A stretch of 36,028 bases of DNA from Bacillota bacterium (GTDB lineage Bacteria > Bacillota > Bacilli > Alicyclobacillales > SLC66): NCBI GenBank assembly GCA_021793015.1, contig JAJYTO010000009.1, forward strand, positions 1-36,028, read 5' to 3'. The translations under genes and the position numbers were made by a program. Below are positions 9,227 to 35,185 of the stretch, one piece after another; positions within the stretch are counted from its first letter, which is position 1; each line of letters begins with the position of its first letter. The notes under the pieces were generated by a model, which did no database searches, was not told the origin of the DNA, and was given only the letters and a program-made list of their open reading frames with translations.

Positions 9227-9403
9227 ATGACACAACATGGGGAGGCGCGAATCGAATACCCATTGCACGATTGTAAATGTTGCTCACACATAGGGGCGCA
9301 TGCTGAGGGCGCAGGCCGTCAAAAACATATTTCGAAGGAGGGTTCCGTGTGTTTGTTCCAGATCCATCGTATCTATCGCCAGGCGATAATTCTTGGCAAT
9401 TGA
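9227..9403 (+). other. Possible leader ORF overlapping the amt start
   Basis: An open frame from ATG 9227 (or ATG 9215) runs 58 or 62 codons and ends inside the transporter gene in another frame. GGGAGGG at 9206-9212 precedes it: two bases before the first ATG and 14 before the second, neither ideal. The peptide is rich in Cys and His (HDCKCCSHIGAH). It may be a translated leader or simply chance; no homology is claimed. Confidence 0.25.
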
Positions 9404-10770: not shown

Positions 10771-10876
10771 CGCAGTACAGTTGACGCCGCGTCGGCAACG
10801 CCAGTGCGAGAGAATGATGCAATAGAGATCGACTGCATTGCCTTGACCGGCGTGACCATCACATAGAGGAGTGGGG

Positions 10877-10900
10877 AGAAGGTCCGGAGGGCCTTCTTTC
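10877..10900 (+). terminator. Rho-independent terminator after amtB
   Basis: AGAAGGTCC (10877-10885) pairs with GGGCCTTCT (10889-10897), nine base pairs including one G-U, around a GGA loop. It is followed by TTCCTTTG. The U-tract is interrupted but the stem is strong, and it sits in the gap behind the transporter gene. Confidence 0.65.
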
Positions 10901-10943
10901 CTTTGTGCTATTCATGTCAGATTGACTGCAGAGGTGTCGCAGA

Positions 10944-11393
10944 ATGAATCTAAGCGATATGGAGTTCGTGAGCGCGGGGTCCGGCATGATGAAATTCAGT
11001 CGTGCATGGAAGGACAGGCGAACCGGGATTTACGAACAGGCCTTTTCGGAACTGGACAGTTGGCTGGAAAAGCAGTGGATGGAGGCGTACAAAGAAGGGT
11101 ACGAGGCTGGTGAAGTCAAGGCCCGCTCGCTGATTGCCGGCACTCTGTTGATGAACGATATCGATGTGCCGGAAGTGGTGCACTATACAAAATTAGCTGA
11201 AGCACAGGTTGAGATGCTTCAGCTCCAAGTGGAGCGAGCGGTGGAGCAGTGGCGGCGGCAGAACTTGCGGGACATGGCGATGCGGTTTCTGGATGATGGG
11301 ATGAATTCTGACATGGTGGCGAAATATCTCAGTCTGTCGCGAGAACAGTTGGATGACCTATTGTGCGAAGAGGAGACGTCACACGACGAGTAG
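10944..11393 (+). CDS. Hypothetical helical protein with an internal duplication
   Basis: 149-residue soluble, strongly helical, charged protein that I cannot assign to a named family. Two related segments are visible: ARSLIAGTLLMNDIDVPEVV with YTKL (about 53-77), and RDMAMRFLDDGMNSDMVAKY with LSLSREQLDDL (about 108-139). Each resembles the C-terminal tails of Rpn/PD-(D/E)XK transposase-like nucleases, where an E-G-rich coil is followed by 'ARxLLxxGxxxxxVAxxTxLSxxxL'. No nuclease core precedes them here. ATG 10944 follows GAGGTG (10931-10936). It lies between two unrelated transcription units, so context gives no function. Confidence 0.6.
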   Translation: MNLSDMEFVSAGSGMMKFSRAWKDRRTGIYEQAFSELDSWLEKQWMEAYKEGYEAGEVKARSLIAGTLLMNDIDVPEVVHYTKLAEAQVEMLQLQVERAVEQWRRQNLRDMAMRFLDDGMNSDMVAKYLSLSREQLDDLLCEEETSHDE

Positions 11394-11521
11394 AGCGACG
11401 ATTTTCCAACATCTGCCTACAAATCATGCGCTATTCTCATAGGCGCGTCAATTGGCTGGAGACGAATGATGAATGGTGAGGTATGATGGTGACACATGAC
11501 GCGCAGCGAGGAGAGTGAAGC

Positions 11522-12157
11522 ATGTACATACCAACACCGTTTCGAATGAACGATCCGACGGAAATCATGAGATTCATCCACGCCCACAGTTTTGGCCTCT
11601 TGACGAGCACAGTTGAGAGCCAACCGTTCGCCACGCATCTTCCGTTTCTCTATGATGCCGGGCAAAATGTTTTGTTTGCCCACTTGGCCAAGGCGAATCC
11701 GCAGTGGCGTGAACTAGACGGACAAACGGCGCTCGTCGTGTTTTCCGGGCCGCACGCTTATGTTTCGCCGTCTTGGTACGAGGCGCCCGCATCCGTACCG
11801 ACGTGGAACTATGTAGCGGTGCATGTGTATGGGATATGCAGGGTAATCGACCATGAAGAGGAATTGGGACGGTTGCTTGAGCAGACAGTGAGATTTTACG
11901 AACCGCATTCAGAATTGCCGTACCAGGCTGATGAACCGTTTTATCGAAACATGATGAAGGCCATTGTCGGTTTCCGGGTAGACATCACCAGGGTGGAAGG
12001 AAAAGCGAAGCTGAGCCAGAACAAATCGGACGAGATTCAGCGGCGCGTTGCCGCCAGACTGGGGGAGTCGGGAGACTTCGGGGCTCAAGATGTGGCCCGG
12101 TTAATGCAGGAACGGTTAAAAGCTTTGAAAGGGGCAGAGCAAGTTGAAGATTTATGA
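11522..12157 (+). CDS. PaiB-like FMN-binding protein
   Basis: 211-residue member of the PaiB/FMN-binding split-barrel family, close to the ~207 residues of B. subtilis PaiB. Diagnostic motifs are MYIPTPFRM at the N-terminus, THLPFLYD, HLAKANPQW, and GPHAYVSPSWYE followed by VPTWNYVAVHVYG. PaiB acts in B. subtilis with the acetyltransferase PaiA in control of sporulation and degradative enzyme genes. Here too an acetyltransferase gene follows and overlaps by 14 bases, though that protein belongs to a different GNAT branch. The start ATG follows GAGGAGA at 11509-11515. Confidence 0.85.
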   Translation: MYIPTPFRMNDPTEIMRFIHAHSFGLLTSTVESQPFATHLPFLYDAGQNVLFAHLAKANPQWRELDGQTALVVFSGPHAYVSPSWYEAPASVPTWNYVAVHVYGICRVIDHEEELGRLLEQTVRFYEPHSELPYQADEPFYRNMMKAIVGFRVDITRVEGKAKLSQNKSDEIQRRVAARLGESGDFGAQDVARLMQERLKALKGAEQVEDL

Positions 12158-13263: not shown

Positions 13264-14496
13264 CTACGCCGTCGTGCCAGCGCCCGAACTGGAGGCTGAC
13301 GAAGAATGGGGCTCCGGAGACTTCCATGTCTGACTGAGGAAGTGAGAGACGGCCGTGCTTTGCTGTGTGGCCAACCATTGGGTGAGTTGCTGCGTCAGGG
13401 TCGACGGACTCACGTTCTGCGCTTGAGCCACCTGCGTCACGCTCTTCCCGGATTGCAGATCGGTCATCAGGGTGTTCGGGGACAGCTTCAGAAGTGTGGC
13501 GGTTTCGCCCAGCAGTCCACCGTCGGCCATTCCGTGTCTACCTTTGCCATGCGGTTTCTGTCCGATGCCCGGCCCAGTCTGAGAGCCATCGGAATGTGCA
13601 GGGAACACTTGATTGACAAAGTGGGAAATCGATGTGCTTTGTCGCTGCGCCGCCCACTGTTCCAGTTCCTGCGTCAGTGTCTGCGGGCTCACGCTTTGCG
13701 CCTGAGCCACCTGCGCCACGCTCTTCCCAGATCGCAGATCGTTCATCAGAGTGGTCGGGGACAGCTTCAGGAGCGTCGCCGTTTCCTTGGACAGTCCACC
13801 GCCGATCATGCCGGGTCCCCATGGTCCAAAGGCTTTCATGCCAGCATGAGGTTTCGGTTGAGAGTGGTTGGACGGCGCATGGAACGTCTGACTGAGGAAG
13901 TGAGAGACGGTCGTGCTTTGCTGCGTCGCCAACCATTGGGTGAGCTGCTGCGTCAGGGTCGACAGACCCGTGCTTTGCGCCTGCGCCACCTGCGCCACGG
14001 TCTTACCGGATCGCAGATCGGTCATCAGGGTGCTCGGGGACAGCTTCAGAAGTGTGGCGGCTTCGCCCAGCAGTCCGCCAGCGGCCATCCCGTGTCTGCC
14101 TTTACCACCCGGTTTCTGTCCGGCGCCCGCCTTCATCATGGGGCTGCCAGGATGTGCGGGGAACATTCGATTCACATACTTGGAGATTGATGTATTTTGT
14201 TGCTGCGTCAGCCATTTCCCCAGTTCCTGTGTCAGTGTCTGCGGGCTCACGTTCTGGGCCTGCGCCACCTGCGCCACGCTCTTTCCTGATCGCAGATCGG
14301 TCATCAGAGCGGCCGGGGACAGCTTCAGGAGTGTGGAAGTCTCACCCAACAGTCCACCGTCGGCCATTCCCCAGTGAGGTTGTTTCGTCGTCGTTGATCC
14401 AGCGGCAAATGCGCTGGTGGCTCCCATCGTGATCGTAACCGCCGTTGCGGCGCCGATCATGGATAGTTTCAGCATGCGATGAGAATGAAATTGCAT
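13264..14496 (-). CDS. Secreted protein with four tandem helical repeats
   Basis: 410-residue exported protein. The signal peptide (basic start, hydrophobic MIGAATAVTITMGATSAFA) probably ends at AFA-AG near residue 32. Four repeats follow at about 48-110, 140-203, 234-297 and 328-390. Each contains GLLGETATLLKLSP, then TLMTDLRSGKSVAQVAQAQ and a TLTQxLxxW segment. The core pattern 'LxxGKSxAQxAxAxxVSxxTL' resembles helical repeats in many secreted Bacillota and Actinobacteria proteins, but the function is unknown. Repeats alternate in type (A-B-A-B). Gly/Pro/His-rich linkers separate them. ATG 14496 is preferred over ATG 14505 because CTCCC (minus-strand GGGAG) abuts the latter but lies nine bases from the former. 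No anchor motif is visible. Confidence 0.8.
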   Translation of the reverse strand: MQFHSHRMLKLSMIGAATAVTITMGATSAFAAGSTTTKQPHWGMADGGLLGETSTLLKLSPAALMTDLRSGKSVAQVAQAQNVSPQTLTQELGKWLTQQQNTSISKYVNRMFPAHPGSPMMKAGAGQKPGGKGRHGMAAGGLLGEAATLLKLSPSTLMTDLRSGKTVAQVAQAQSTGLSTLTQQLTQWLATQQSTTVSHFLSQTFHAPSNHSQPKPHAGMKAFGPWGPGMIGGGLSKETATLLKLSPTTLMNDLRSGKSVAQVAQAQSVSPQTLTQELEQWAAQRQSTSISHFVNQVFPAHSDGSQTGPGIGQKPHGKGRHGMADGGLLGETATLLKLSPNTLMTDLQSGKSVTQVAQAQNVSPSTLTQQLTQWLATQQSTAVSHFLSQTWKSPEPHSSSASSSGAGTTA

Positions 14497-15048
14497 TCCG
14501 TCCATCTCCCTTAGAGAATTTTGGCTGTCTCAGTATCTTGACGTGCCTTGTTTGAAAAACGCGACCGCCGTCGCGACAAGAGCGGATGCCGCCTATCCCA
14601 TTTGAGCGATGAACGCGCACGCATACATGTTATTCCTTTCATCCCTGATTTGATCAATCCTGTGTTGCTTTCACTGAGGCGGCATTGGACTGATACTGGG
14701 CATTGAATGCGATGCTGTACTCATCATGGATTTGACTCCCAAGATGTTGCATTAACCTTCTGGCAAAGGACGGGCCCTGTCCTTCACAAAACCCATTTTG
14801 AATGGATAACTTTTAGATTCCCTTGAAAAAACGGAACGACACGATTCGTTCATACTCCTCTTGGTGAGCGGTATATTTGCCCACACTGCGGAACTTCACT
14901 CTGGGTTGATATTGTGCCTGTATCGGGCGAACATCCGCAGGATTTCCGATGGACATTTCCAGTTCCAAATAAGCTGCTTGACCACTGAAGACATTGGCGT
15001 CCGATGCAAACGCATCTCCTCATTTCAGGCAAAATGGATCACGATAGC
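14497..15048. other. 552-base intergenic stretch without a confident gene
   Basis: Lies between the MarR gene and the repeat-protein gene, both on the minus strand, so it must hold the promoter of the latter; no clear -35/-10 pair stands out. One palindrome AAGGAC-N7-GTCCTT is at 14766-14784. A 32-codon minus-strand frame (14752 to 14654) behind AGAAGG has coding-like composition but a too-short SD spacing. Nothing else is supported. Confidence 0.4.
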
Positions 15049-15504: not shown

Positions 15505-17464
15505 CGGATGTCACTTCCTTGTGATCGAGTTGATCGAGTTGATCGAGTTGATCGAGTTGATCGAGTTGATCGAGTTGATCGAGTTGATCGAGTTGATCGA
15601 GTTGATCGGCGGCGAGACCGCCGGTTTGCCCTTCTTGGGAAAACTGCGCCTCGTAGAGCTGTCTGTACAGGCCGCACGTCGCCAGCAAATCCGCATGCCT
15701 TCCTTGCGCCACGATCCCACCATGCTCAAGCACCACGATCAGGTCGGCCGCCAGTATGGTAGACAGGCGATGCGCAATCACCACTGCCGTTCTCCCTTTC
15801 ATTAGTGCAGTCAAAGCTGTCTGAATCTGCCGTTCCACCAGGGTATCCAGCGCGCTGGTCGCTTCGTCGAGCAGCACGATCCGCGGCGCACGCAGTAAGA
15901 CACGAGCGATGGCCAGGCGCTGTCGTTCACCGCCCGAGAGTCGGTAGCCGCGCTCGCCCACCACCGTATCATAGCCTTGTGGCAAGCCTGCGATCATGTC
16001 GTGAATCTGCGCCGCCTCACAGGCACTCTGAAGTTCTTCATCCGTAGCCTCTTCCTTGGCAAACAACAGGTTCTGGCGAATGGTGTCGTGGAAGAAAAAT
16101 GGGTCCTGGGGAACCAACCCCATTTGCGACCGCAGGGAGTCCAGCGTGAGACTCTTCGCATCGTAATCGTCGAGGAGCAGCCTGCCCTCCAGTGGGTCGG
16201 AAAAGCGCGGGAGAAGATGGAGGAGCGTCGTCTTGCCCGCGCCGCTCGGGCCAACCAGGGCCACCATTTGTCCGGGCTCCGCTGTCAGTGTGATGTGGGA
16301 CAGCGCCAGCGACGATTCCTCAGTTCCTGCGCGATAGGCGAAGGATACACCTTCCATCCTGATCCGACCCTGCACGGCACCTGGCGCCAGGTTGACTGAC
16401 CCGTCATCCACCTCCGGCACAATGTCCAAAATGGCAAAAATACGCCGAAACAGCGCAATCGACGACAACAGGTTGACCTGCACCTGCGCAAGTTGACTGA
16501 AGGGGGAGTAGAGTCGGTTGAGCAGCGAGGTGAAGGCAACAATGGTGCCCAGTCCCATCTGGTGATGAATCACCAGCCATCCCCCGTAGCCCCAGAGCAG
16601 AGCGGGTCCCACCGACGAAAACATGCCAATCCACATGAAGAGCCAGCGCCCCACTACACTCTGGCGCACATACAGATTGCGCAGGTCGCGGTTGTCTACT
16701 TGGAACCGCTCAGTCTCCCGCTTCTCTCGATTGAATATGCGTGTGAGCAGTGCCCCGCTTACGCCGAACTGCTCCGTAAGTTGGACGGTCAGTGTGGATA
16801 ACCGTTCTTGGATGCGCCCCTGCAGTTTCTGACGGGCGCGCCCAACCCGCTGTGTGGGCACGATAAACCCTGGAACGACGACAAGGGCGAGTACGGCCAA
16901 CTGCCAATTCATACTGAACATAAACGCAACAGTAAAGAGAATGACCAGGACATTACTCGCGAAGCCGATCAATGTGTTGTTGATGACGCTTTGAATCGCG
17001 CCCACGTCATTCATGACGCGCGAGACCAAATCTCCCGACTGGCGAGTGGCAAAAAAGCCAACCGATTGGCGTTCCACGTGTCGAAACAGCTGGAGCCGAT
17101 AATCCGCCATGACATCCTGCGCAATCAGGTTGCTCAGCCATGTCTGCAGCACGCCAAGCAAGCCCGTTCCCACCGCGACGAGGATGAGAAACAGAGTCAG
17201 TTCGATGACCACCGAGAGTCGACCGCGCAGGATTCCGTTGTCAATGATGCGTTGTGTCAAGTAGGCCGGGATGACACCACCCGCCGCTGTGATGAGCAGG
17301 ACCAGCGACACGAGGATGGCGTTTCCCCAATAAGGCACAAATGCGGCGAGCGCCCGTCGCAAGATGGGCCAGTCGAGTTTCTCCGACTTGGCCAACTCCC
17401 GCATCTGCCAGCTGTGTGCTCCCCACATCCCGGATCCGCCGCCGCGGCCCATCGGCATTCCCAT
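15494..17464 (-). CDS. ABC-type exporter (fused membrane and ATPase domains)
   Basis: 656-residue half-transporter of the multidrug/lipid exporter type. A six-helix membrane domain occupies about 40-340. The nucleotide-binding domain has Walker A GPSGAGKTT, Q-loop VPQDPFFF, signature LSGGERQR, Walker B IVLLDEATSALD and H-loop AHRLST. The N-terminus is Gly/Met-rich (MGMPMGRGGGSGMWGAHSW). The C-terminus carries an extra tail of nine DQL tripeptides encoded by a 9-base tandem repeat, not part of the family fold. ATG 17464 follows GGGGGTG on the minus strand (17474-17480). Homologues act as homo- or heterodimers; no partner gene is adjacent, so a homodimer or a distant partner is implied. The substrate is unknown. 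Confidence 0.9.
   Translation of the reverse strand: MGMPMGRGGGSGMWGAHSWQMRELAKSEKLDWPILRRALAAFVPYWGNAILVSLVLLITAAGGVIPAYLTQRIIDNGILRGRLSVVIELTLFLILVAVGTGLLGVLQTWLSNLIAQDVMADYRLQLFRHVERQSVGFFATRQSGDLVSRVMNDVGAIQSVINNTLIGFASNVLVILFTVAFMFSMNWQLAVLALVVVPGFIVPTQRVGRARQKLQGRIQERLSTLTVQLTEQFGVSGALLTRIFNREKRETERFQVDNRDLRNLYVRQSVVGRWLFMWIGMFSSVGPALLWGYGGWLVIHHQMGLGTIVAFTSLLNRLYSPFSQLAQVQVNLLSSIALFRRIFAILDIVPEVDDGSVNLAPGAVQGRIRMEGVSFAYRAGTEESSLALSHITLTAEPGQMVALVGPSGAGKTTLLHLLPRFSDPLEGRLLLDDYDAKSLTLDSLRSQMGLVPQDPFFFHDTIRQNLLFAKEEATDEELQSACEAAQIHDMIAGLPQGYDTVVGERGYRLSGGERQRLAIARVLLRAPRIVLLDEATSALDTLVERQIQTALTALMKGRTAVVIAHRLSTILAADLIVVLEHGGIVAQGRHADLLATCGLYRQLYEAQFSQEGQTGGLAADQLDQLDQLDQLDQLDQLDQLDQLDQLDHKEVTSVAF
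15522..15608. repeat. 9-base tandem repeat (minisatellite) in the exporter gene
   Basis: Nine perfect copies of TGATCGAGT (15522-15602) plus six further bases. The unit length is a multiple of three, so copy-number change alters the exporter tail by whole DQL units without frameshift. Every unit holds a GATC and a TCGA site. It ends just before the ribosome site of the overlapping marR gene. Confidence 0.97.
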
Positions 17465-23816: not shown

Positions 23817-24994
23817 CTATGATTTACTGAGGTAAATCATATCCCAATATTGTAAACTGGGAACCGTGAATGTCACATAACTTCCCCCGCTGTCCTGACC
23901 TGTCGTGTAACTCACCTCGTAGCTCTTTCCGTTCTGATAATCCGGAGAAGCCCATGCGACGCTGCTGACTGTGCCGCTTCCATAATAGTACTTCACCGAC
24001 ACATTACTCAGAGCGGTCGGGGTCGGATAAGTGGCATCCAAATCCTGTACGGGCCCGTTTGCGCCCGTACGGTATCGACATCCGACTGCACGGCAGCCAA
24101 CGAGCTGTCAATCGCTAGGTAATAGTACAGAGTGGTCGTGCCGTTTGCGGGAATGGTGACCTTATTCTCGAATCCCGCATCCAGGTCGGACCCTGTCAGG
24201 CTCGCGTTATTGGGCAGAACGCCCGAGTTGTCGAAGGCGTACCAAGCGCCCACTGTCGGGTCACTCGTATCGGAATTCGAGTCATTGCCAACCTGATAGG
24301 AGGTTGGCGCCTGCAGTGCGCCGAACGCCATATAATACTGACCGCTGGCTGACATGTTGTTAAAAATCGCGTTGCGTGTGGCATCATAATACGCCGTTTG
24401 GGTGCTGGAAGAGTTCTTGTTGCTGAAATGAACCTGATCCAACACATTCCACGTAATGGGGCTGCTGGTCGTGTTGGTGAGCGTGTATTGAACCACCACG
24501 AAATTCTCGTTGGGAACCATCGCATAATTGCGCGAAATGGAGACGGGGAGGGAGGACCCGCTGTAAGTTAGGTACTGGGAGTTCAGTATGCCACTCGACT
24601 CCAGGTAGCCGTTTGACGCAAAGTTGTGAATTTGGTCGTACTTGACGGCATTCGTTTCGTCTCGGAAGAATCCAGAGTAGTCCACGATTTGATTCGTCGG
24701 CCAATCGGAAGCATAGTGAAATTCGCCCAATCGCGGGCCATAATTGCTGGTATCGTTTTGATTCAACATGCTGGCCATCCAAATGCCCATGATGTTGCTC
24801 CAGTTCGACATATACAGACTGGCCGCCGAAGTGGAAGAGGGGTTTGTCGTTGTCAGCGCATCAACTTGCGGTAGTGAATTCATGCTGCTCACCTCGTTGT
24901 GGTTGTCTCCGTTGCTGATTGTTCGCAACAGGCCAAACCACCTCGTATTTAGGATGCTGTCGGTCCAGGGAGAAAGCGGTTCGCCTTCACGCAA
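23817..24994 (-). pseudogene. Broken GH15-like/GH66-tail glycosidase gene
   Basis: Two frames form one ruin. The first (24994, or ATG 24883 with GAGGTGA, down to about 24045) encodes a beta-sandwich domain like the N-terminal part of GH15 glucoamylase/glucodextranase enzymes (RLGEFHYASDW, DYSGFFRDETNAV, FVVVQYTLTNTTSSPITWNV) and stops where the catalytic domain should begin, after VRAQTG. The second, one frame away (24041 to 23817), encodes VSVKYYYG...SPDYQNG...FTVPSLQYWDMIYL, the C-terminal tail of GH66 enzymes, closely matching the end of the secreted dextranase at 33197-35047. The catalytic parts of both ancestors are missing. A deletion joining two tandem genes is the likeliest origin. 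No signal peptide is seen. Confidence 0.75.
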
Positions 24995-25018
24995 TAAGCA
25001 GTGATTCTCTACTCACCG

Positions 25019-25058
25019 CCCTCTCGACACCCAATTTTACCCACAGGACCCTCTCGAC
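25019..25058. repeat. Direct repeat in the leader of the broken glycosidase gene
   Basis: CCCTCTCGAC occurs at 25019-25028 and 25049-25058, a 30-base period, just downstream (minus strand) of the candidate -10 box. It could be a regulatory half-site pair; function unknown. Confidence 0.4.
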
Positions 25059-25062
25059 GAAC

Positions 25063-25094
25063 AACTTACTACAGGTATCATCGAAAGTAAATAG
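25063..25094 (-). promoter_or_regulatory. Minus-strand promoter/operator of the broken glycosidase gene
   Basis: On the minus strand CTATTTACTTTCGA (25094-25081) contains the -35-like TTTACT, followed after a 17-base spacer by TAAGTT (25068-25063). The sequence is closely matched in inverted orientation by 25195-25226, including a TGTAGTA just before or at the -10. It is the promoter copy serving the decayed divergent gene. Confidence 0.6.
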
Positions 25095-25194
25095 GCAAGA
25101 CGGCAATGAAGACAGGTTACAAAATTACAAGATTTATAGTAATTTCTCAGTGTTTGCACCTGAATAAGAAGGCCGATCACAGACCTGGAATAGA

Positions 25195-25226
25195 CTATTT
25201 ACTTTCGACGGTGAGTGTAGTATGTT
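25195..25226 (+). promoter_or_regulatory. Promoter/operator of the dextran-utilisation operon
   Basis: CTATTTACTTTCGA (25195-25208) contains TTTACT (25198-25203); a 17-base spacer leads to TATGTT (25221-25226), about 100 bases upstream of the binding-protein gene. The 14-mer is the exact reverse complement of 25081-25094. Since both copies cover a -35 box, the 14-mer may be the operator of the ROK repressor encoded in the operon (inference). Confidence 0.6.
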
Positions 25227-25326
25227 ATTTTCAATGGGGGGTGGTTGTAGTATTTCCTGAGTCACATGTGGGCAAGAACGTGTAAGGAACTACTGCATCA
25301 AACCAAAAAATCACGGGGGTGTTTGT

Positions 25327-26616
25327 GTGAAAGGTAAACGCTTTCTTCCTGCTTTGGCCACGCTGATGGCTCTTGGCGCGATGACCGGCTTGACCGGTGC
25401 GGCCGCCGCACAAAGGACGCCAGTTCGTCGTACGTCGGCGCCAATTACCATCACGTTCTGGAATGCATACAATGCGACTGACAATGAGGAAAAGACAATT
25501 GTCAAAGATATCATCCCTGCTTTTGAGAGGAGCCATCCGGGGATCAAGGTACAAAACGTTACGCTCCCGTACAGCGCGATGCAGCAAAAACTGCTGACAT
25601 CCGCCGCTGGCGGCGTACTGCCGGACGTCGCTCGGTTGGATATCATCTGGACGCCGCAATTGGCGAAACTGGGAACTCTGATGGTGCAGAACAACCTGCC
25701 CGGATTTGCCGCCCTCAGCAAGAAGGTGTTTCCTGGTCCGCTGTCCACCAACCTGTATAATGGAAAGTACTACGGGCTGCCTCTTGATACCAACACGACG
25801 GTGCTGTTTACTAATACCGCCGTTCTCGCCAAACATGGCATTAAGCAGCCGCCCAGAACGATGGCGCAGTTTATCGCCGATATCAAGAAAATGACAGGCG
25901 GCCAGGGCAAGACCAAGACGTTTGGGTATATGGATGGAGGCGGAACCGATCTGTGGGGTTTGGTGCCGTGGATTTCGTCCTTTGGCGGCTCCGTCCTGAG
26001 TCCCAATTTGAAGACCGCCAACGGGTATCTCAACGGTCCGAAAACCGTGCGCGCCATCACCACACTGATCAGTCTGAGCAAGGCAGGGTACATAACGGGG
26101 CTCCTGCCTGGCGCCAACGGCGACCTGACAGGTCTTGCGCAGGGGCAATATGCGATGATCAACGAAGGGCCCTGGGACGTGCCAACCATGCAGCAGCAGT
26201 ATCCAAAAGTTCATTATAAGATGTCCCTGTTCCCGGCCGGACTGGGGGGATCTCGCAGCGTTGTGGGCGGCGAGGACATTGGCGTGTTTAATACGAATCC
26301 CGCGCATGAAAAGGCAGCCTGGGCGTTCGAAAAGTTCATGATGTCGCCGTACGCGCAGTCGCTGATGCAGGCGGCGGGCCAGATGTCCACGCTCAAAAAC
26401 CTGCCCCCTTCGCCGGTGCTGAAGGGCCTCGCTTATTACAATGTGTTTCGCAAGCAACTGAATACGGCCGTGGCCCGACCATCCATCCCGAACTACAGTC
26501 AGGTGGACACGGACATCAGCAACGCAGTTACATTGGCCGCCCAGGGCAAGGAATCGGTCAAAGCGGCGCTGGACCAAGCAACACAGCAGGTGGACGCGCT
26601 CTTGGCCTCCAACTGA
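25327..26616 (+). CDS. ABC sugar-binding protein (family 1), dextran/isomalto-oligosaccharide operon
   Basis: 429-residue extracellular solute-binding protein: ITITFWNAYNATDNEEKTIV after the signal peptide, AGGVLPDVARLDIIWTPQLA and GQYAMINEGPWDVP are typical of MalE/MsmE-like proteins. It should deliver oligosaccharides to the two permeases downstream. The N-terminal signal (MKGKRFLPALATLMALGAMT) has no lipobox cysteine, and the whole protein contains no cysteine, which is unusual for a Gram-positive binding protein normally held as a lipoprotein. GTG 25327 follows GGGGGTG at about 25314-25320. The neighbouring GH66 and GH13_31 genes point to alpha-1,6-glucans as ligand. Confidence 0.88.
   Translation: MKGKRFLPALATLMALGAMTGLTGAAAAQRTPVRRTSAPITITFWNAYNATDNEEKTIVKDIIPAFERSHPGIKVQNVTLPYSAMQQKLLTSAAGGVLPDVARLDIIWTPQLAKLGTLMVQNNLPGFAALSKKVFPGPLSTNLYNGKYYGLPLDTNTTVLFTNTAVLAKHGIKQPPRTMAQFIADIKKMTGGQGKTKTFGYMDGGGTDLWGLVPWISSFGGSVLSPNLKTANGYLNGPKTVRAITTLISLSKAGYITGLLPGANGDLTGLAQGQYAMINEGPWDVPTMQQQYPKVHYKMSLFPAGLGGSRSVVGGEDIGVFNTNPAHEKAAWAFEKFMMSPYAQSLMQAAGQMSTLKNLPPSPVLKGLAYYNVFRKQLNTAVARPSIPNYSQVDTDISNAVTLAAQGKESVKAALDQATQQVDALLASN
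25333..25346. promoter_or_regulatory. Candidate CcpA cre site at the start of the binding-protein gene
   Basis: GGTAAACGCTTTCT agrees with the cre consensus TGWAANCGNTNWCA at all positions except the first and last, and overlaps codons 3-7 of the gene. A cre site here would block transcription when glucose is abundant. The same bases encode part of the signal peptide (K-R-F-L), so coincidence cannot be excluded. Confidence 0.5.
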
Positions 26617-26697
26617 TTCGTGGCTTTAGAGCCGCAAACGGGGCGGGGTCGAGGTCAAGACTCCGCTCTTGTCTTTACACACGAGCGAGGGATACTC

Positions 26698-27912
26698 ATG
26701 GGAATTGCCAAAGCGGATCGCAAACTGATGAGAGAGATCAACAACATGCAAGTGCTGCAACGTATTCGGGCGCAGGAACCAATATCGCGGCCGCAACTGG
26801 CGGAGCAGACCGGTCTGGGACTGTCCACCATCGGAAACATTGTGACGGAACTGCTGGACAACAAGCTCGTTCGCGAAGTGGGGGAAGGCGATTCCAGCGG
26901 GGGCCGGAGACCGGGCCTGCTGAAGATCAATGAATCCGCTCGCTACGCCTTCGGTGTGAAGATCGGCGCCCAGCAGGCGTGGATCTCACTCTTTGATCTG
27001 TGTGCACGACAATTGGAGATGGTCGAAGTTTCGTTTGAGAAAGAAGATGCCCCCGCTGTCGTGGTTGGACTGATTGCGGCGCGTGTCGAAGAACTGAGAA
27101 AAGCCCATCGGTTGACCAAGCGATCAATTCTCGGCCTTGGAATCAGCACGTCTGGACTCATCGATCCGCAGACAGGCGCCTGCCGCTATAGCCCCATCCT
27201 CGGTTGGAGCGATGTACCCATTCGAGCTGCCCTTGAAGAGCTTCTCAAGCTGGATGTAATCGTTGAAAATGACGTGAATGCATTTGCATACGGGATTTTG
27301 CTCCAGGAATCGGTCGCCGCGACGCGCAACATGATCTGCATCACCACAGGACCGGGCGTTGGGGCAGGCATCATTTTGAACAGGCGCCTGTATCGCGGCA
27401 GTTGCGGCGGCGCTGGAGAATTCGGACATATGACGATCGACAGGCACGGTCCTCTATGCACATGCGGGCGCCGCGGTTGTCTGGAGGTGCTGGCGTCCGA
27501 CCAGTTTCTGATGGCAAGGGCCCGCGAGATGGCGGCGGCAGGGGAATCGACCCTGCTCGAGAGCATGGTTGACGAAGGAAAGTTATCGCCAACCACCTTG
27601 TATTATGCGGCGCAAGTCGGAGATGAAGCAGTTCGGTCGCTGTATAGGGAATTGGGCGAAAACCTCGGCTGCGGGGTGACCGACCTGATCAACTTGTTCA
27701 ACCCCGACAAGATCGTCATCGGCGGCGAAGGAGCCGTCGCGGCCAAGTTTTTTCTGGATGCCGTTCGGGACGTGGTGGCCAAGTCCGTATTTCCCCATCT
27801 GGCCGATCAGGTGGAGATCGTGGTGGACGACGGCAGTGAGGACGTGTGGCTGCAGGGTGCGGCCATGTTGGTGATCGAGCGATTCTTTGAAGTTCCCCTG
27901 GCCGCGTATTGA
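26698..27912 (+). CDS. ROK-family transcriptional repressor
   Basis: 404-residue XylR/NagC-type regulator. An N-terminal winged helix (ISRPQLAEQTGLGLSTIGNI, about 26-45) is followed by a ROK sugar-binding domain with ENDVNAFAYG, GAGEFGHM and a zinc motif CTCGRRGCLE. The ATP-binding D-x-G-G-T motif of ROK kinases is replaced by FGVKIGAQQA, as in regulators that bind but do not phosphorylate sugar. ATG 26698 has GCGAGGG upstream; the in-frame GTG 26620 is unsupported and would give an over-long N-terminus. Lying between the binding-protein and permease genes, it most likely represses this operon until an alpha-1,6-linked sugar or glucose derivative binds. Confidence 0.88.
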   Translation: MGIAKADRKLMREINNMQVLQRIRAQEPISRPQLAEQTGLGLSTIGNIVTELLDNKLVREVGEGDSSGGRRPGLLKINESARYAFGVKIGAQQAWISLFDLCARQLEMVEVSFEKEDAPAVVVGLIAARVEELRKAHRLTKRSILGLGISTSGLIDPQTGACRYSPILGWSDVPIRAALEELLKLDVIVENDVNAFAYGILLQESVAATRNMICITTGPGVGAGIILNRRLYRGSCGGAGEFGHMTIDRHGPLCTCGRRGCLEVLASDQFLMARAREMAAAGESTLLESMVDEGKLSPTTLYYAAQVGDEAVRSLYRELGENLGCGVTDLINLFNPDKIVIGGEGAVAAKFFLDAVRDVVAKSVFPHLADQVEIVVDDGSEDVWLQGAAMLVIERFFEVPLAAY

Positions 27913-27937
27913 TGCTCTCTTTGGTGGAGGTGGAGAT

Positions 27938-28888
27938 ATGGCCAAGGACACGATTGTGTTCCATAGTGCCCTGCCGTTGCGTCGAAGAAAACAGCGCTTG
28001 TACAGAAGTGTGCGGCATCATGCCGCCATCTATCTGTTTTTGCTTCCTGGGCTCGCTTTTTTTCTTGTTTTTACTACGTATCCCATCCTGTATTCTTTTG
28101 TCATGAGTTTCACCAACTGGCCCATTATGGGCCCCGCGCAGTTCGTGGGGGTGCAAAACTACAGTCAGGTTCTGAACGATCCCATCGTACGCACCGCTTT
28201 TCTCAATGCCATTTTGTACATGGTGGTGTCCGTGCCCCTCCAACTCGGGCTGGGCCTTCTTGTGGCCATCGGACTCGACCGACCCATGCCGGGACGGACG
28301 ACGTTGCGCCTGATCTACTATTTGCCGGTCATCACCTCGTGGGTCGTCGTCACGTACATATTTCAGTACCTCTTCAACACCGACTACGGACTGATCAACT
28401 GGCTCCTGATGTCGATAAACGTCATCCAGTCGCCGATTTCCTGGCTGGCCGATCCCAACAAGGCGATCGTGGTCGCGGCGATTCTTGGATCGTGGAAGGG
28501 CATCGGCTGGGCCATGATGATTTTTCTGGCCGCTCTGCAGGGGGTGCCCGTTGAACTGTACGAGGCGGCGGCGATTGACGGCGCTGGGAAATGGCATTCG
28601 TTCTGGTCAATCACCCTGCCGAGTATTCGCGCTTCCATGTTCTTTGTCACCGTCCTTCTGGTTATGGGCGCCTTTCAGGTGTTCATCCAGATCTACATTC
28701 TGACGGCGGGCGGACCGGCTGACCAGACACAGGTGCCCCTCGTATGGATGTATCAGCAGGCTTTCGCCAATCTGCAGTTCGGCTATGCGAGCGCCTTGTC
28801 CTGGCTGATCGCGGTGCTCATTGTCCTGTTCACCATGGTTCAGTTTTGGATCTTCCGTCCACGCAGCCTGAACGTGAGGGAGGGCTAA
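27938..28888 (+). CDS. ABC sugar permease, MalF/MsmF-like
   Basis: 316-residue inner-membrane permease with six predicted helices. The EAA loop that docks the ATPase is visible as VPVELYEAAAIDGAGKWHSF. ATG 27938 follows GGTGGAGG (27923-27930); an in-frame TTG 27887 overlapping the ROK gene is rejected. It pairs with the permease that starts three bases after its stop. No ATPase gene is in the operon, so a shared MsmX-type ATPase is needed. Confidence 0.92.
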   Translation: MAKDTIVFHSALPLRRRKQRLYRSVRHHAAIYLFLLPGLAFFLVFTTYPILYSFVMSFTNWPIMGPAQFVGVQNYSQVLNDPIVRTAFLNAILYMVVSVPLQLGLGLLVAIGLDRPMPGRTTLRLIYYLPVITSWVVVTYIFQYLFNTDYGLINWLLMSINVIQSPISWLADPNKAIVVAAILGSWKGIGWAMMIFLAALQGVPVELYEAAAIDGAGKWHSFWSITLPSIRASMFFVTVLLVMGAFQVFIQIYILTAGGPADQTQVPLVWMYQQAFANLQFGYASALSWLIAVLIVLFTMVQFWIFRPRSLNVREG

Positions 28889-28891
28889 CAC

Positions 28892-29722
28892 ATGTGGGTC
28901 AACTCAAGGGCGACAACCATCCGCTTTTTGATTCTGTTGACGTTTGCCATTATCATGGCTTTCCCGTTTTGGTATATGGCCGTTGTGTCTCTGGAACCCA
29001 ATCAGCTGTCGCTGCAGTACCCGCCCGTCCTGTTTCCGCAGCATGCGTCGTTTGGCAACTATGTCGGAGCTTGGCAGGCGAATAACTTTGCCGGGTACTT
29101 CATGCGCAGTCTGTATGTGTCGGTCGTCTCGACGTTCTTGGGCACCTTGATCGCGTGCGCTGTGGCGTTTGTTGTGTCGCGTTACCGCTTCTTTGGGCGC
29201 AATGCCATTTACCGCGCTTTCTTGGTATCCATGATGATCCCTGGCATGACGTTTCTCCTGCCGCAGTTCAAATTGATGGAGACATTGGGGTTGCTCAATC
29301 ATTTGTACGGGCTGATCCTGATTTACACGGCTGGCATGATCCCGTTCACGACGTTTCTGATGAAGGGCTTCTTCGATGACATACCCTTGGAACTGGAGGA
29401 TGCCGTGCTCATGGACGGCGGGAGCAAATGGACGCTGTTCGCGCGCGTCGCGATGCCCATGGCGACGCCGTCGCTCGTGACGGCCGTTTTGTTCAACTTC
29501 ATGGGCGGTTGGGATGAATTCACGATGGCCCTGACCTTCCTGCAAAATCCCAACAAATTCACCCTGCCCATTGCCCTGATGTTTTTTCAGGGCCAACACA
29601 GTACGCAGTGGGGAGAGTTTTTCGCGGCCGCTCTCATCCAGACGGCGCCTATCATCATCATGTTCGTGATCTTCCAGCGTTACATCGTGAAAGGAATTAT
29701 GGCTGGCGCCGTGAAGGGGTGA
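28892..29722 (+). CDS. ABC sugar permease, MalG/MsmG-like
   Basis: 276-residue second permease with six predicted helices and EAA loop IPLELEDAVLMDGGSKWTLF. The ATG at 28892 follows GAGGGAGGG (28876-28884). Together with the upstream permease and binding protein it completes the membrane part of a carbohydrate-uptake (CUT1-type) importer. It is followed after seven bases by the cytoplasmic GH66 gene, so uptake and hydrolysis genes are tightly cotranscribed. Confidence 0.92.
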   Translation: MWVNSRATTIRFLILLTFAIIMAFPFWYMAVVSLEPNQLSLQYPPVLFPQHASFGNYVGAWQANNFAGYFMRSLYVSVVSTFLGTLIACAVAFVVSRYRFFGRNAIYRAFLVSMMIPGMTFLLPQFKLMETLGLLNHLYGLILIYTAGMIPFTTFLMKGFFDDIPLELEDAVLMDGGSKWTLFARVAMPMATPSLVTAVLFNFMGGWDEFTMALTFLQNPNKFTLPIALMFFQGQHSTQWGEFFAAALIQTAPIIIMFVIFQRYIVKGIMAGAVKG

Positions 29723-29729
29723 GGACAGG

Positions 29730-31439
29730 TTGAAGACTTCGAAACCGTTTGACGTATTTCCCGTGTACACGCAGTATAGACCCGAGCAATCGGTTCGAGT
29801 GTTTATGGCCATTTCGCAGGACTGCGGCGATGACGATGCTGTGGCGATAACGGTGTTTCACCATCATGCTCGCGTTCGCGCCGTTCGTCTCTCCCTGTCG
29901 GAATTGCGGCGTCAGCAAGGGATTCTTGACCTTGGCGTCTTTTCGGAGGGTGGGTATCATGTGGCCTGCGAGTTGCAACGGACGGAAGGGTCGTGGACGG
30001 CGCGCACCGCGTTCGACGTCAGAGCGCATTGGCGCAACGCTCCTCGTTACAGCTTTCTTTGTAACTTTGCGCCGATCGACCCGCAGGTGAACATGCAAGA
30101 AGACATGCAAGAGAACATGCAGACGTTCTTTCGCCACTTTCACCTGAACGTCACGCAGTTTTATGATTGGATGGAGCGTCACGACGCGCTCGTTCCGAGG
30201 GAGTCGGAGTTTGTGGATCCCATGGGCCGAAAACTCTATACCGAGGGCATCATCTCGCGTATGCAAGCCCTTCGAGAGATCCAGTCCGCGCCAATCGCGT
30301 ACGCGGCGGTATACGCGTCTCTGGCAGACTATGCGCAGACGCATCCGGAACAGGGGATCTATGACAATCAAGGAGTCCAGTACTCGCTGATTGATCGCTT
30401 CTTTCTCATGGACATCTCGGAGGATTCCCTGTGGAGGGAGCATATCCTGGCGGAATTTGGACGAGTGGTGCAGTTCGGGTTTGACGGGTTGCACCTGGAC
30501 CAATATGGCTTTCCAAAATCGGCGCAGAGGCGAAACGGAACAACGATGTGGATGGACGGGGCCTATCTCTCTTTTATCGATGCATGCCGTGAGACATTGG
30601 GCGACCAGACCGGTCTGATCTTCAACGCCGTGTCGGGCTATCCGACCCATGCGGTGAGCGCCTCCGCGCAGGACGCTGTATATGTGGAGGTTTGGCCGCC
30701 TATGGTGCGCTACCGCCACCTGTGCGCGCTCATCGAGAGGGTCCGGCGGGAGGCGGCGGGAACGAAGCAGGTCATCCTGGCGGCGTACCTGAAATCCTTT
30801 GGCGCAAAGCAGGAGACGCGACCCGATGCGATCGCCAGGAGCGCCCTGCTCGTGACGGCCGTGATTTTTGCCAGCGGCGGGTACCATCTGGTGTTGGGCG
30901 AAGCGGGAGGGATGCTGGCGGAGGCCTACTACCCCGACTACAACACCATGGTTCCCGAACTGTATGATCCCCTGCGCGCGATGTACGACATCGTCACCGC
31001 GGACGCGGACCTGCTGTCCGCGCCGGATGTGGTCGATGTGTCCTGGAGCTTTGTCGGCGGGATCAACGAGGAGATGCTCATACAAGGCGCCCCGATTTCC
31101 TTGGAACCGGACATGGGAACGGTGTGGGTGCGCGTGACGCTGACAAAACCGGGGCTAGTCCTGCACTTCATCAACCTGCTGTGGGTGGATCACGAGGAAT
31201 GGAACTCGGTGCACGAGGAACCGTTTCGACCAGCGCCTCCGCTGGATGTATCGATTGAGTGGAATCATCCGGTGGACGGCGTTTTTGTCCAGCGCGCCGA
31301 AGCGCCGGGGTGGATTCGCGCTGACGTGGACTGGACATCGCATGTTCGCGGGAAGGCGTTGCATCTGACGGTGCCTTCGTTTGACGTGTGGTCCATGGTA
31401 TTTGTTCCGTACAACACAGATTCAGAAAGCGTCAAATGA
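29730..31439 (+). CDS. Cytoplasmic GH66-family glucanase (dextranase-like)
   Basis: 569-residue GH66 protein without a signal peptide. GH66 contains endo-dextranases and cycloisomaltooligosaccharide glucanotransferases. The nucleophile is expected in GFDGLHLDQYG (Asp257) and the acid/base in YVEVWPP (Glu320). An N-terminal beta-sandwich (about 1-110) precedes the (beta/alpha)8 barrel (about 115-430); the C-terminal sandwich ends with LHLTVPSFDVWSMVFVPYN, cognate to the tail of the secreted paralogue. The CBM35 insertion of cyclising enzymes is absent. TTG 29730 follows GTGAGGA. Residues 125-136 carry a small MQE(D/N)MQ repeat. A role in hydrolysing imported linear or cyclic isomalto-oligosaccharides is likely, but not shown. 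Confidence 0.85.
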   Translation: MKTSKPFDVFPVYTQYRPEQSVRVFMAISQDCGDDDAVAITVFHHHARVRAVRLSLSELRRQQGILDLGVFSEGGYHVACELQRTEGSWTARTAFDVRAHWRNAPRYSFLCNFAPIDPQVNMQEDMQENMQTFFRHFHLNVTQFYDWMERHDALVPRESEFVDPMGRKLYTEGIISRMQALREIQSAPIAYAAVYASLADYAQTHPEQGIYDNQGVQYSLIDRFFLMDISEDSLWREHILAEFGRVVQFGFDGLHLDQYGFPKSAQRRNGTTMWMDGAYLSFIDACRETLGDQTGLIFNAVSGYPTHAVSASAQDAVYVEVWPPMVRYRHLCALIERVRREAAGTKQVILAAYLKSFGAKQETRPDAIARSALLVTAVIFASGGYHLVLGEAGGMLAEAYYPDYNTMVPELYDPLRAMYDIVTADADLLSAPDVVDVSWSFVGGINEEMLIQGAPISLEPDMGTVWVRVTLTKPGLVLHFINLLWVDHEEWNSVHEEPFRPAPPLDVSIEWNHPVDGVFVQRAEAPGWIRADVDWTSHVRGKALHLTVPSFDVWSMVFVPYNTDSESVK

Positions 31440-31455
31440 TAAGGGTGGGTTGGCA

Positions 31456-33162
31456 ATGCCAGACGAGCGAGTCGAGGATGTCCAGAGGACATGGTGGAAG
31501 GAAGCGGTGGTGTATCAGATCTATCCGCGCAGTTTCATGGATAGCAACGGAGACGGCATCGGTGATTTGCAGGGAATTATCGCGAAGCTTGACTATCTGA
31601 AGTGGCTGGGAATCGACGTCATCTGGCTTAGTCCGGTGTATCGCTCCCCCAATAATGACAATGGGTATGATATCAGCGACTATCGCGGCATCATGGAGGA
31701 CTTTGGCGCCATGAAAGACTTTGACGCGTTGCTGGATGGCCTGCATAGCCGGGGCATGAAACTGGTGATGGATCTTGTGGTGAACCATACTTCGGACGAA
31801 CATCCATGGTTTCTGCAGGCACGAGAGAGCAAAGATAACCCTTTTCGAGATTATTACATTTGGCGGTCGAACGGGAATGGTCAACGCCCCAACAATTGGG
31901 TCTCCTTTTTTGGCGGCTCCGTGTGGGAACTGGACCGGTCGAGCGATGAGTACTATCTGCACCTGTTTTCCGTCAAACAACCCGATCTAAACTGGGACAA
32001 TCCGAATCTGCGAGCGAAGATCCACGACATGATGAGATGGTGGCTGGACAAGGGGGTGGACGGATTTCGGATGGATGTCATCAACGCCATTTCCAAGGTA
32101 CCGGGCCTGCCGAACGCCCCTGGGGAGGACGACCTGGAGTGGGGCGGTTCTTTATTCCTGAACGGTCCTCATGTGCATACCTACTTGCGGGAAATGAACG
32201 CCGAGGTGTTGTCCCGCTACGATATCGTGACCGTGGGCGAGACCCTGTCCGTCACACCGAAAGAAGCTCTGAAGTACGTCGGGTTTAACCGTCAGGAATT
32301 GAACATGGTGTTTCAATTCGAACTGATGGACATCGATTCTGGGTCTGGCGGCAAGTGGGACGTTCAACCGTGGACACTGAGCGAGTTCAAGCGCATCGTC
32401 AGCCGCTGGCAAACGGAGTTGAACGGTCGCGGGTGGAACAGCCTGTATTTGAACAATCACGACCAGCCCCGCCTTGTGTCCCGATTTGGCGATGAGGGGA
32501 CATATCGCGTACAGTCGGCCAAAATGTTGGCGACCCTGCTGCATACTTTGCAGGGGACGCCATTCATCTATCAGGGTGAAGAGATCGGCATGACCAATGT
32601 GCAATTTCCCGATATTGAACACTATCGGGACATTGAGACCCTGAATTGGTATGCGGAACAGATGGACAAAGGAGAACGTCCTGTCACAGCGGTCATGGAG
32701 GCCATTCACCGCAAAGGCCGTGACAACGCCCGAACCCCGATGCAATGGAGCGATGATCCCCAGGCTGGATTCTCGGTGGGGAAGCCGTGGCTTGAGGTCA
32801 ATCCCAACTACCGTGAAATCAATGTCAAGCAACAGATGGAAGATCCTGAATCCGTCTTGAGTTATTATCGGAGATTGATCGAACTTCGGCGAAAAACCCC
32901 CATCCTGACTTACGGTGATTATACATTGGTCAATCCCGACCAGGAAGAGATGTATGTTTTTGCACGGCGGTTGGGGCATGCCCAATTGGTAACCGTATTG
33001 AATTTTACGCCCGAAACACAGACATTCTGTTGGCCTCTGGACATGGCGCCAGAAAATTTCAAACTGATCCTGTGCAACTACGGCTGCGATGACAGCGCGG
33101 CCGACAGGACGGACAGAGCGGTTGACCTGCGCCCCTATGAGGCGAGGGTTTATTTGGCGTGA
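31456..33162 (+). CDS. Oligo-1,6-glucosidase / dextran glucosidase (GH13_31)
   Basis: Cytoplasmic exo-alpha-glucosidase releasing glucose from isomalto-oligosaccharides. The 568-residue protein has DLVVNHTSDEHPWF (region I), GFRMDVIN with nucleophile Asp207, TVGET with Glu262 and NNHDQPR with Asp336. Valine directly after the nucleophile aspartate is the residue associated with alpha-1,6 specificity in this subfamily (alpha-1,4-specific relatives carry Thr). ATG 31456 has AAGGGTGGG (31441-31449); the in-frame TTG at 31381 overlapping the GH66 gene is rejected. It completes the pathway begun by the two GH66 proteins. Confidence 0.93.
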   Translation: MPDERVEDVQRTWWKEAVVYQIYPRSFMDSNGDGIGDLQGIIAKLDYLKWLGIDVIWLSPVYRSPNNDNGYDISDYRGIMEDFGAMKDFDALLDGLHSRGMKLVMDLVVNHTSDEHPWFLQARESKDNPFRDYYIWRSNGNGQRPNNWVSFFGGSVWELDRSSDEYYLHLFSVKQPDLNWDNPNLRAKIHDMMRWWLDKGVDGFRMDVINAISKVPGLPNAPGEDDLEWGGSLFLNGPHVHTYLREMNAEVLSRYDIVTVGETLSVTPKEALKYVGFNRQELNMVFQFELMDIDSGSGGKWDVQPWTLSEFKRIVSRWQTELNGRGWNSLYLNNHDQPRLVSRFGDEGTYRVQSAKMLATLLHTLQGTPFIYQGEEIGMTNVQFPDIEHYRDIETLNWYAEQMDKGERPVTAVMEAIHRKGRDNARTPMQWSDDPQAGFSVGKPWLEVNPNYREINVKQQMEDPESVLSYYRRLIELRRKTPILTYGDYTLVNPDQEEMYVFARRLGHAQLVTVLNFTPETQTFCWPLDMAPENFKLILCNYGCDDSAADRTDRAVDLRPYEARVYLA

Positions 33163-33196
33163 TAACACAGCAGACCGATGCGGGGGGAGATATAAA

Positions 33197-35047
33197 ATGA
33201 GAAACGGTTGGGTGCGCAAGGGGTTGACCATCATGGGCGGCGGAATGCTCCTGATCACGACGCTGGGTTTTTCAACTGTTCCAAAGACCGCTATGCTTGC
33301 TTTGCAAGCAAGCATGACGACAAACAAAGCCCGCTATAATCCTGCAGAGCCCGTCAAATTCAAGGTGACTGTAACGAATCCAAATGATGGGATCTTATCG
33401 GGCAACCTCTATCTTGCTGTGAATCATTTGGGCGAGCCGACAGGATCCCTTTCTCCCCAACGCATTTCCGTGCCGGGCAAGAGTTCGCGCATCTATGTAT
33501 TGACGTGGACTCCTCTCACGAAAGACTACCAGGGATATTTTGTGGGAGGGGTTATACGGTCGCAAGCCGGGTCCATTCTCGCAAGGGTTGCCACGGCGAT
33601 TGACGTTTCATCGAGTTGGGTAAAGTTTCCGCGCTACGGGTTTGTATCCGAGTACCCTCAAATGTCGAGAACAGCGGTGAAACATGAACTGGCTCAACTG
33701 AAAAATTATCATATCGACGGGTTGCAATTCTACGACTGGCAGTGGAAACACGACATTCCGCTGGCGGGAACCGTGTCGCATCCGGCTGCGTCCTGGCATG
33801 ATATAGCCGGGCGCACCAACTATCGACAGACAATTCTCAACATGATTCAGGTGGGACATCAATTAGGCATGGCCTCCTTCAATTACAATCTGATGTACGG
33901 CGCCTGGGCAGGATACCAGACGGACGGCAGCGGCGTGAAGTCTGCCTGGGGCCTCTACTATGACAACGGAGGCGCCCTTCAGGTCAGTGTATCCATGCCC
34001 GCTGGTTGGAGTACAAGCGCCATTGACGTGTTCAACCCCGGTAATTCGGGATGGAGACAGTACATTCTCCATCAGGAGGCCAACGTGTTTAAGACCTATC
34101 CGTTTGATGGCTGGCAGGTGGACCAACTGGGTAATCAAGGAACCGTTTTTGACGCCAAGGGCCAACAAGTTCACTTGCAAGCGACGTTCACTCCGTTCCT
34201 GAATGATGCAGCTCGATTTTTGCGCAAGCAAATCATCTTTAATAACGTAGGGGGGTACGGTTTGCAGTCTGTCGCCGCTCATTCCAATGAATCGGTGGCT
34301 TATGTGGAATGCTGGCCGAATTCAGGACAGGCGACATTCAACGATTTAAAGACGACCATCGACTCAATCAACGCTTTGAGCAAAGGGAAAAAGTCTGCGA
34401 TTCTGGCTGCCTATCTGGACAGCACGTACGCAAACTCCTTTTCTGGACAGAATCCAGGTTATTTTAACAACGCAGGTGTTCTTCTTGCCGATGCGACCAT
34501 TTTTGCCAGCGGCGGAGACCATATTGAACTCGGCGACAATCTACAGATGTTGAACGCGCCGTATTTCCCGAATCACAACCTGATCATGGACGCTGCTCTT
34601 AAAGCGAAATTGCTGTCCTACTATAACTTTATGGTGGCTTATGAAAATCTGCTTCGCGGAGGGCTGGTGAACACGGAAAACAGTGTGGCGCTTCACGGAC
34701 TGAAGGTCAGCCAGGATGGGTTGCCACAGACAGTTTGGGCATTCACCAAAGCGGGAGGCGGGTATGAGGTGATTCAACTAATCAACCTGTACCGACAGAC
34801 AACGAATTTATGGCAGGATTCGTCCGCCAGCACGCCGACGCCTCCGACATTTCACAACGTTCAGGTTAAGTATTACGTTGGACAGGAGAAGGTCCAGGGT
34901 GTCTATGCGGCCTCTCCTGATTTTCAAAACGGGGCCGCTACGCAACTGAAGTACACATACTCCGTATCCAAGGGGAAAAGATACATCTCCTTCACGGTTC
35001 CAAGCCTGCAGTACTGGGATATGATTTATCTGAAAAAGACAACGTGA
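33197..35047 (+). CDS. Secreted GH66 dextranase
   Basis: 616-residue exported enzyme that should cut alpha-1,6-linked glucan outside the cell. The signal peptide (VRKGLTIMGGGMLLITTLGF) probably ends near residue 33. An N-terminal beta-sandwich (TNKARYNPAEPVKFKVTVTN) precedes the barrel, with nucleophile Asp309 in FDGWQVDQLGNQG and acid/base Glu371 in YVECWPN. The C-terminal sandwich ends FTVPSLQYWDMIYLKKTT. The CBM35 insert typical of cycloisomaltooligosaccharide glucanotransferases is absent and the protein is far shorter, favouring plain dextranase. ATG 33197 follows GGGGGGAG (33182-33189). No cell-wall sorting motif is present, so it is probably released. Confidence 0.9.
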   Translation: MRNGWVRKGLTIMGGGMLLITTLGFSTVPKTAMLALQASMTTNKARYNPAEPVKFKVTVTNPNDGILSGNLYLAVNHLGEPTGSLSPQRISVPGKSSRIYVLTWTPLTKDYQGYFVGGVIRSQAGSILARVATAIDVSSSWVKFPRYGFVSEYPQMSRTAVKHELAQLKNYHIDGLQFYDWQWKHDIPLAGTVSHPAASWHDIAGRTNYRQTILNMIQVGHQLGMASFNYNLMYGAWAGYQTDGSGVKSAWGLYYDNGGALQVSVSMPAGWSTSAIDVFNPGNSGWRQYILHQEANVFKTYPFDGWQVDQLGNQGTVFDAKGQQVHLQATFTPFLNDAARFLRKQIIFNNVGGYGLQSVAAHSNESVAYVECWPNSGQATFNDLKTTIDSINALSKGKKSAILAAYLDSTYANSFSGQNPGYFNNAGVLLADATIFASGGDHIELGDNLQMLNAPYFPNHNLIMDAALKAKLLSYYNFMVAYENLLRGGLVNTENSVALHGLKVSQDGLPQTVWAFTKAGGGYEVIQLINLYRQTTNLWQDSSASTPTPPTFHNVQVKYYVGQEKVQGVYAASPDFQNGAATQLKYTYSVSKGKRYISFTVPSLQYWDMIYLKKTT

Positions 35048-35185
35048 CGGGTTCCCCATGCCCAGTATAATGGGGCTATAAAACAGGTGGTGATCCGTTC
35101 TTGTTCGGGTAACGGGCAGCGGCGTAAGCTCCCTGTAACTTTCCAAGCCAAGTCTGCTTGACAGTAAACTGAAGGAAAAATTGAT
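35048..35185. other. Gap after the dextran operon
   Basis: A weak hairpin CCCCAT (35054-35059)/ATGGGG (35070-35075) lacks a T-run. TATAAT at 35065-35070 has no fitting -35. The stretch about 35085-35150 is G+C-rich and unlike the A+T-rich gene that follows; no gene or known element is recognised. Confidence 0.3.

Follow-up and report, generated by a model that had tools for sequence, protein, structure and literature searches.

Probable pseudogene with both ends of a large GH15-GH66-type enzyme beside an intact importer operon in a Bacillota bacterium

Results

The window, a stretch of 36,028 nucleotides that constitutes contig C317 of a Bacillota genome (3.82 Mb in 321 contigs, 91.9% complete, one assembly), contains an ABC importer operon with GH66 and GH13 genes and, on the opposite strand to its left, two adjoining remnants with GH15- and GH66-type homology, the two being separated from the operon by a pair of mirrored elements (Table 1). 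The listed start of GH66b, 33089, falls inside the GH13 gene, while the probable start 33197 sits behind GGGGGGAG. Two tandem repeats lie elsewhere in the window. The first (13355-14367) consists of 3.6 copies of a 279-bp unit inside ORF 13264-14505, whose protein has helix-turn-helix family matches at several places. The second (15522-15608), close to the 3' end of an ABC transporter gene, is a perfect 9-bp repeat of 9.7 copies, and since its unit is a multiple of three, strains could vary in its length without a break of frame.

Table 1 Remnant locus, mirrored elements and operon in window coordinates
Feature	Position	Strand	Basis
Remnant 2, C-terminal GH66 tail including the stop codon	23817..24044	minus	PF13199; L008 C-terminus
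Deletion join, uncertain by about 3 bases	24046..24047	minus	different frames on its two sides
Remnant 1, GH15-type N-terminal beta-sandwich (domain N2 of dextran dextrinase)	24047..24859	minus	residues 46-316 of ORF 24994-24008
5' segment of the remnant's open frame, with neither signal peptide nor relative	24860..25012	minus	hydropathy, alignment
Promoter/operator-like element, arm 1, facing the remnant	25060..25094	minus	inverted repeat
Mirror element, arm 2, facing the operon	25195..25229	plus	inverted repeat
Solute-binding protein	25327..26616	plus	SBP_bac_8 / SBP_bac_1
ROK-family regulator or kinase	26620..27912	plus	PF00480 E 8.8e-57
Two ABC permeases	27887..29722	plus	PF00528 in both
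GH66a, signal peptide not seen by eye, probably intracellular	29730..31439	plus	PF13199 E 5e-87
GH13 enzyme, signal peptide not seen by eye	31381..33162	plus	PF00128 E 6.5e-172
GH66b, probable start 33197, signal-peptide-like N-terminus (secreted)	33197..35047	plus	PF13199 E 2.6e-166

The remnant is read in two frames. ORF 24994-24008 comprises 328 codons with zero inner stops; 12 unrelated residues follow the join before it ends at the stop 24010-24008. ORF 24041-23817, of 74 codons, overlaps it in a different frame that is open back to 24107. The initial annotation had proposed a GH15-like sandwich and a GH66 tail in different frames with a breakpoint near 24041-24055, and homology and frames place both pieces as it described, with the join at 24047/24046 inside that range. 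The frame change at the join likewise stands, but the two frames share a stretch of sequence instead of succeeding one another.

As judged from the alignments, both homologies are far beyond chance. Specifically, residues 46-316 of the sandwich are 57% identical to residues 43-315 of an intact protein from a Chloroflexi MAG (L008), and the best solved relative by sequence match is the GH15 dextran dextrinase 9ju0 (E 3.9e-14). The predicted model of the ORF has a mean pLDDT of 61.8, with residues 1-98 below 50, and the fold search with Foldseek therefore used the sandwich part only; in it, chains of 9ju0 took ranks 1-3 (E 5.8e-13 to 1.0e-12). The N-terminal super-sandwich (N2) of the GH15 dextran dextrinase cluster is present in the remnant. 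The glucodextranase of Arthrobacter globiformis (GH15, 1ug9), an inverting hydrolase, has a similar sandwich fold (rank 24, E 7.5e-7) but shares only 15% identity.

The tail ORF matches the Pfam GH66 profile PF13199 with an E-value of 2.4e-19. It is 53% identical to the C-terminus of L008 (residues 1437-1510, 88.2 bits) and matches the GH66 protein of locus L060 (genome G296) better, at 59% and 95.9 bits. Its motif TVPSLQYWDMIYL is, as had been noted at the outset, identical in the intact GH66b (33089-35047). The possibility that the tail was copied from GH66b within the window was considered and rejected: the two are 54% identical over 72 residues, compared with the values for L060 and L008 above, and the stretch of identity is limited to a 13-residue motif near the end.

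What is missing comprises everything catalytic. The GH15 barrel, an (alpha/alpha)6 fold with two catalytic Glu, is absent, as the join falls at residue 316, and of GH66 only profile positions 479-546 of 546 are left, without the catalytic barrel. Compared with L008, the remnant lacks residues 316-1436, about 1120 residues or 3.4 kb, which by alignment correspond to the two barrels, of GH15 and of GH66, and to the stretch that follows the first of them. The deletion fusion put forward in the initial annotation is thereby supported: both ends of an intact homologue are present, the middle is gone and the frame is broken, as in a pseudogene. A PF00723 profile search found no other GH15 gene in the window's assembly; the same search was positive in 9 of 14 control genomes, and the profile does detect the L008 protein and that of a Cohnella locus (L006). 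As a cause of the deletion, a hairpin at the join was tried and is unsupported, the 8-bp inverted repeat there having a folding z of -1.3, equalled in 16 of 200 shuffles.

The 5' end has changed as well. Six relatives share a signal-peptide-like N-terminal hydrophobic stretch, with best 12-residue hydropathies of 2.2-2.9. In the corresponding region of the remnant (24850-25060), no signal peptide is found in any frame, and the best value is 1.08. Residues 1-45 of ORF 24994-24008 have a counterpart in no aligned relative, and 24860-25060 has no DNA match in any of 60 relatives, nor elsewhere in its own genome. To judge by hydropathy and alignment, loss of the signal peptide is a second lesion, missed earlier, and any product of the remnant could at most be cytoplasmic; which of the two lesions came first is a matter of inference.

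This second lesion also bears on whether the join might be an artefact of assembly or binning, with the real gene full-length and the join chimeric or mis-assembled. The assembly is in 321 contigs and the only one available for its species, and a short inverted repeat does lie at the join, albeit with a z of only -1.3. However, inspection of the sequence at the join revealed no long direct repeat able to mislead an assembler, and with the loss of the signal peptide a separate event, mis-assembly would have to have struck the same gene twice, which makes such an error quite improbable.

Far less credible still is the idea that the short gene is functional, either as a cytoplasmic sandwich protein or as a protein of sandwich and GH66 tail made by -1 frameshifting. 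The upstream frame is clean over its 328 codons and offers a possible start, ATG 24883, behind GAGGTGAGCAGC, and the heptamer GGGCCCG (24056-24050) fits the X XXY YYZ pattern, is correctly phased and would lead into the tail frame. Yet the overlap holds about 33 positions in phase, so that one such heptamer is expected by chance about 1 time in 8 by estimate; the hairpin is, at the same z, unremarkable; and the gene encodes neither catalytic residues nor a signal peptide. Relatives with the same short gene, which the initial annotation had named as contrary evidence, did not appear: the gene is absent in both same-genus genomes examined (G001 and G002).

Sequence conservation bears on the age of the loss. 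For each sandwich row, the positions that do not vary among the other six sequences were counted. The window's sandwich keeps 78 of 88 such positions, the open, full-length L008 keeps 78 of 95, and the five Bacillota-type rows, a more closely related set, keep 78 of 79-81. Third-position GC is 0.69 in the sandwich compared with 0.59-0.71 in the operon genes, and 0.56 in the tail, which has only 75 codons. The sandwich thus exhibits no excess decay, which points to a recent loss. The whole interval 25012-23817 (minus strand) is probably a pseudogene: what remains are the two termini of a single large enzyme that used to be secreted, after a deletion of about 3.4 kb within the gene and the loss of the signal peptide.

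A search of contigs for counterparts returned three loci, in Cohnella (L006), in Gordonibacillus (L007) and in the Chloroflexi MAG. The last contains a single ORF (7500-12032) of 1510 amino acids with the same sandwich, a GH15 domain (PF00723, 45.1 bits with a cut-off of 22) and GH66 (PF13199, 579 bits). A ROK gene and an ABC importer lie on the flanks of this fusion. In a tree of the seven sandwich rows, the window and L008 group together with a support of 100/100, the L008 branch being long (0.57). In L006, L007 and L011 (genome G104), GH66 and GH15 are separate neighbouring genes in the order GH66 then GH15, from which a simple deletion cannot yield the order seen in the window.

Since the sole intact counterpart in this order is one ORF and the sandwich tree groups the window with it, the ancestor would most likely have been a single GH15-GH66 gene hit by an internal deletion, rather than the second unit of a GH15-like and a GH66 gene that the initial annotation had envisaged. 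The alternative, separate neighbouring GH15 and GH66 genes in that order with one deletion that began in the GH15 linker and reached the end region of the GH66 gene, draws on the Bacillota relatives L006, L007 and L011, in which the two are as a rule separate, and on G104, where a broken GH15 gene lies upstream of a same-strand GH66 gene with an importer operon between them. It is nevertheless unlikely, given that direct neighbours stand in the opposite order, that the sandwich groups with a fused protein and that a larger deletion would be required. Against the single-gene reading, in turn, L008 is only 57% identical and itself a MAG, and the GH66 tail alone does not single it out, since L060 matches better. 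The intact fusion occurs in 1 of 177 genomes of L008's class, namely L008 itself, with at most three candidates scored per genome, and is absent among the matches listed from 398 genomes of the window's class, with the best two candidates scored in each.

Among the seven sandwich genes compared, the window's carries the deletion, copy 1 of G104 three frame changes and L007 one. The G104 gene (L010:10712-13492) is a broken second GH15-type copy, 87% like an intact paralogue about 15 kb away, and the L007 gene (L007:7893-10669) is a GH15-type gene split by its one frame change. Both sets of frame changes may be sequencing errors.

Between remnant and operon lies an inverted repeat whose 35-nt arms, separated by 100 nt, are 80% complementary. 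The assembly as a whole contains the core of this repeat at exactly two places, the two arms at this locus, with zero control matches. A scan of 24850-25330 for consensus sigma-70 promoters returned one site, equal to shuffles, and did not mark the mirrored element, whose designation as promoter/operator-like rests on symmetry and conservation. The operon is intact and shared with the sister species G001 at 91.9% DNA identity from 25194 to 35050. Both arms of the repeat are recognisable there, with the alignment also covering 25052-25094. To the left of 25052, G001 carries unrelated ABC-type genes, which the left arm faces in that genome, and a GH15-like gene or remnant is absent from it, the one sister species with the operon; G002, of the same genus, has neither a GH66 nor a GH15-like gene. 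The mirrored element may thus drive whatever gene stands to its left. Of the shared control with the operon that the initial annotation had suggested, the symmetry of the sequence is what was found, and co-regulation of the lost enzyme with the operon is plausible on that pattern.

In G001, about 230 bp of the coding end of GH66b are repeated (97% identity) near 15875-17329 of contig C149 (L040), an arrangement that leaves another GH66 tail fragment. The repeated ends flank a gene that by eye resembles a Gfo/Idh-type oxidoreductase.

Discussion

The remnant and its intact counterpart offer a framework for considering what the lost enzyme may have done. The closest solved relative of both the sandwich and the GH15 catalytic domain of L008 (E 6.2e-64 for the latter) is the dextran dextrinase of Gluconobacter oxydans, 9ju0. 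Both catalytic Glu, in SIWE and GE motifs, are present in L008, L006, L009 and L011. A study of the dextran dextrinase cluster presumes its members to be anomer-retaining transglucosylases, recognisable by a Phe-Tyr dyad (S4) and a Gly-Glu dyad (S5), with fusion to GH66 in some of them (PMC12446779). In the intact relatives examined, Gly-Glu is found in four of four and Phe-Tyr in three of four, the region being deleted in the window; L008 has Tyr-Tyr in place of Phe-Tyr, which weakens the transglucosylase reading. Most or all of the sequence features that mark the transglucosylase cluster are present in the relatives, and 'dextran degradation', the role initially assigned to the lost unit, is doubtful for its GH15 half.

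Known systems share parts of this arrangement. In the CI cluster of Tepidibacillus decaturensis, the CITase is a GH66-type enzyme. That cluster has a set similar to the window's, with CITase, a GH15 4(6)-glucosyltransferase (46GT) and an ABC importer, and additionally a CI-binding protein (PMC13084667). The same paper proposes that the glucosyltransferase beside the CITase converts maltodextrin into alpha-1,6-glucans, which are cyclised and imported. The GH15 gene of T. decaturensis is reported there as active and separate, whereas that of the window is broken; a truncated isomaltodextranase pseudogene adjoins the T. decaturensis cluster (PMC13084667). The G. oxydans enzyme carries an additional N1 domain, has no GH66 portion and lacks a typical signal peptide (PMC12446779), whereas the window keeps only the N2-type sandwich. 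The CITase of Thermoanaerobacter thermocopriae likewise combines GH66 and a dextran-dextrinase-type GH15 in one protein, with GH15 at the C-terminus in that source (PMC12446779), whereas L008, and presumably the ancestor of the window's remnant, has it at the N-terminus. The pseudogene itself is ordinary in kind and the reversed-order fusion mildly new: among the literature matches listed, outside which most subscription journals fall, none describes a GH15-GH66 fusion in this order.

These systems suggest by analogy that the lost enzyme, rather than only degrading dextran, more probably synthesised and processed alpha-1,6-glucan. A model can be sketched in which the ancestral enzyme consisted of a signal peptide, the GH15-type sandwich, the GH15 barrel, a C-terminal beta domain and GH66, in this order. 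Its GH15 half would have built alpha-1,6-linked chains by transfer of glucose from maltodextrin, and its GH66 half would have cut or cyclised them; the adjacent ABC importer would have brought the products into the cell, where the intracellular GH66 and the GH13 enzyme would have degraded them, with enzyme and operon transcribed from mirrored, co-regulated promoters. In the present cell, the operon and the secreted GH66 would presumably still permit the use of external alpha-1,6-glucan, while its synthesis from maltodextrin by this route would presumably be lost. That the ancestor was such a secreted, bifunctional GH15 4(6)-glucosyltransferase-GH66 enzyme yielding (perhaps cyclic) alpha-1,6-glucans from maltodextrin, and that the deletion marks a switch from making to scavenging in which the mirrored promoter was kept, is offered as a tentative proposal that may well prove wrong.

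Taken together, the locus reads as a record of the recent loss of a large enzyme beside an intact importer operon. Loss of the GH15-type enzyme is possibly recurrent, with broken copies elsewhere in copy 1 of G104 and perhaps in L007. The value of the finding lies in a control element that, mirrored, would have outlived its gene and in the pointer to L008, an intact fusion in the reversed order and thereby a candidate for the conversion of maltodextrin to alpha-1,6-glucan by one protein.
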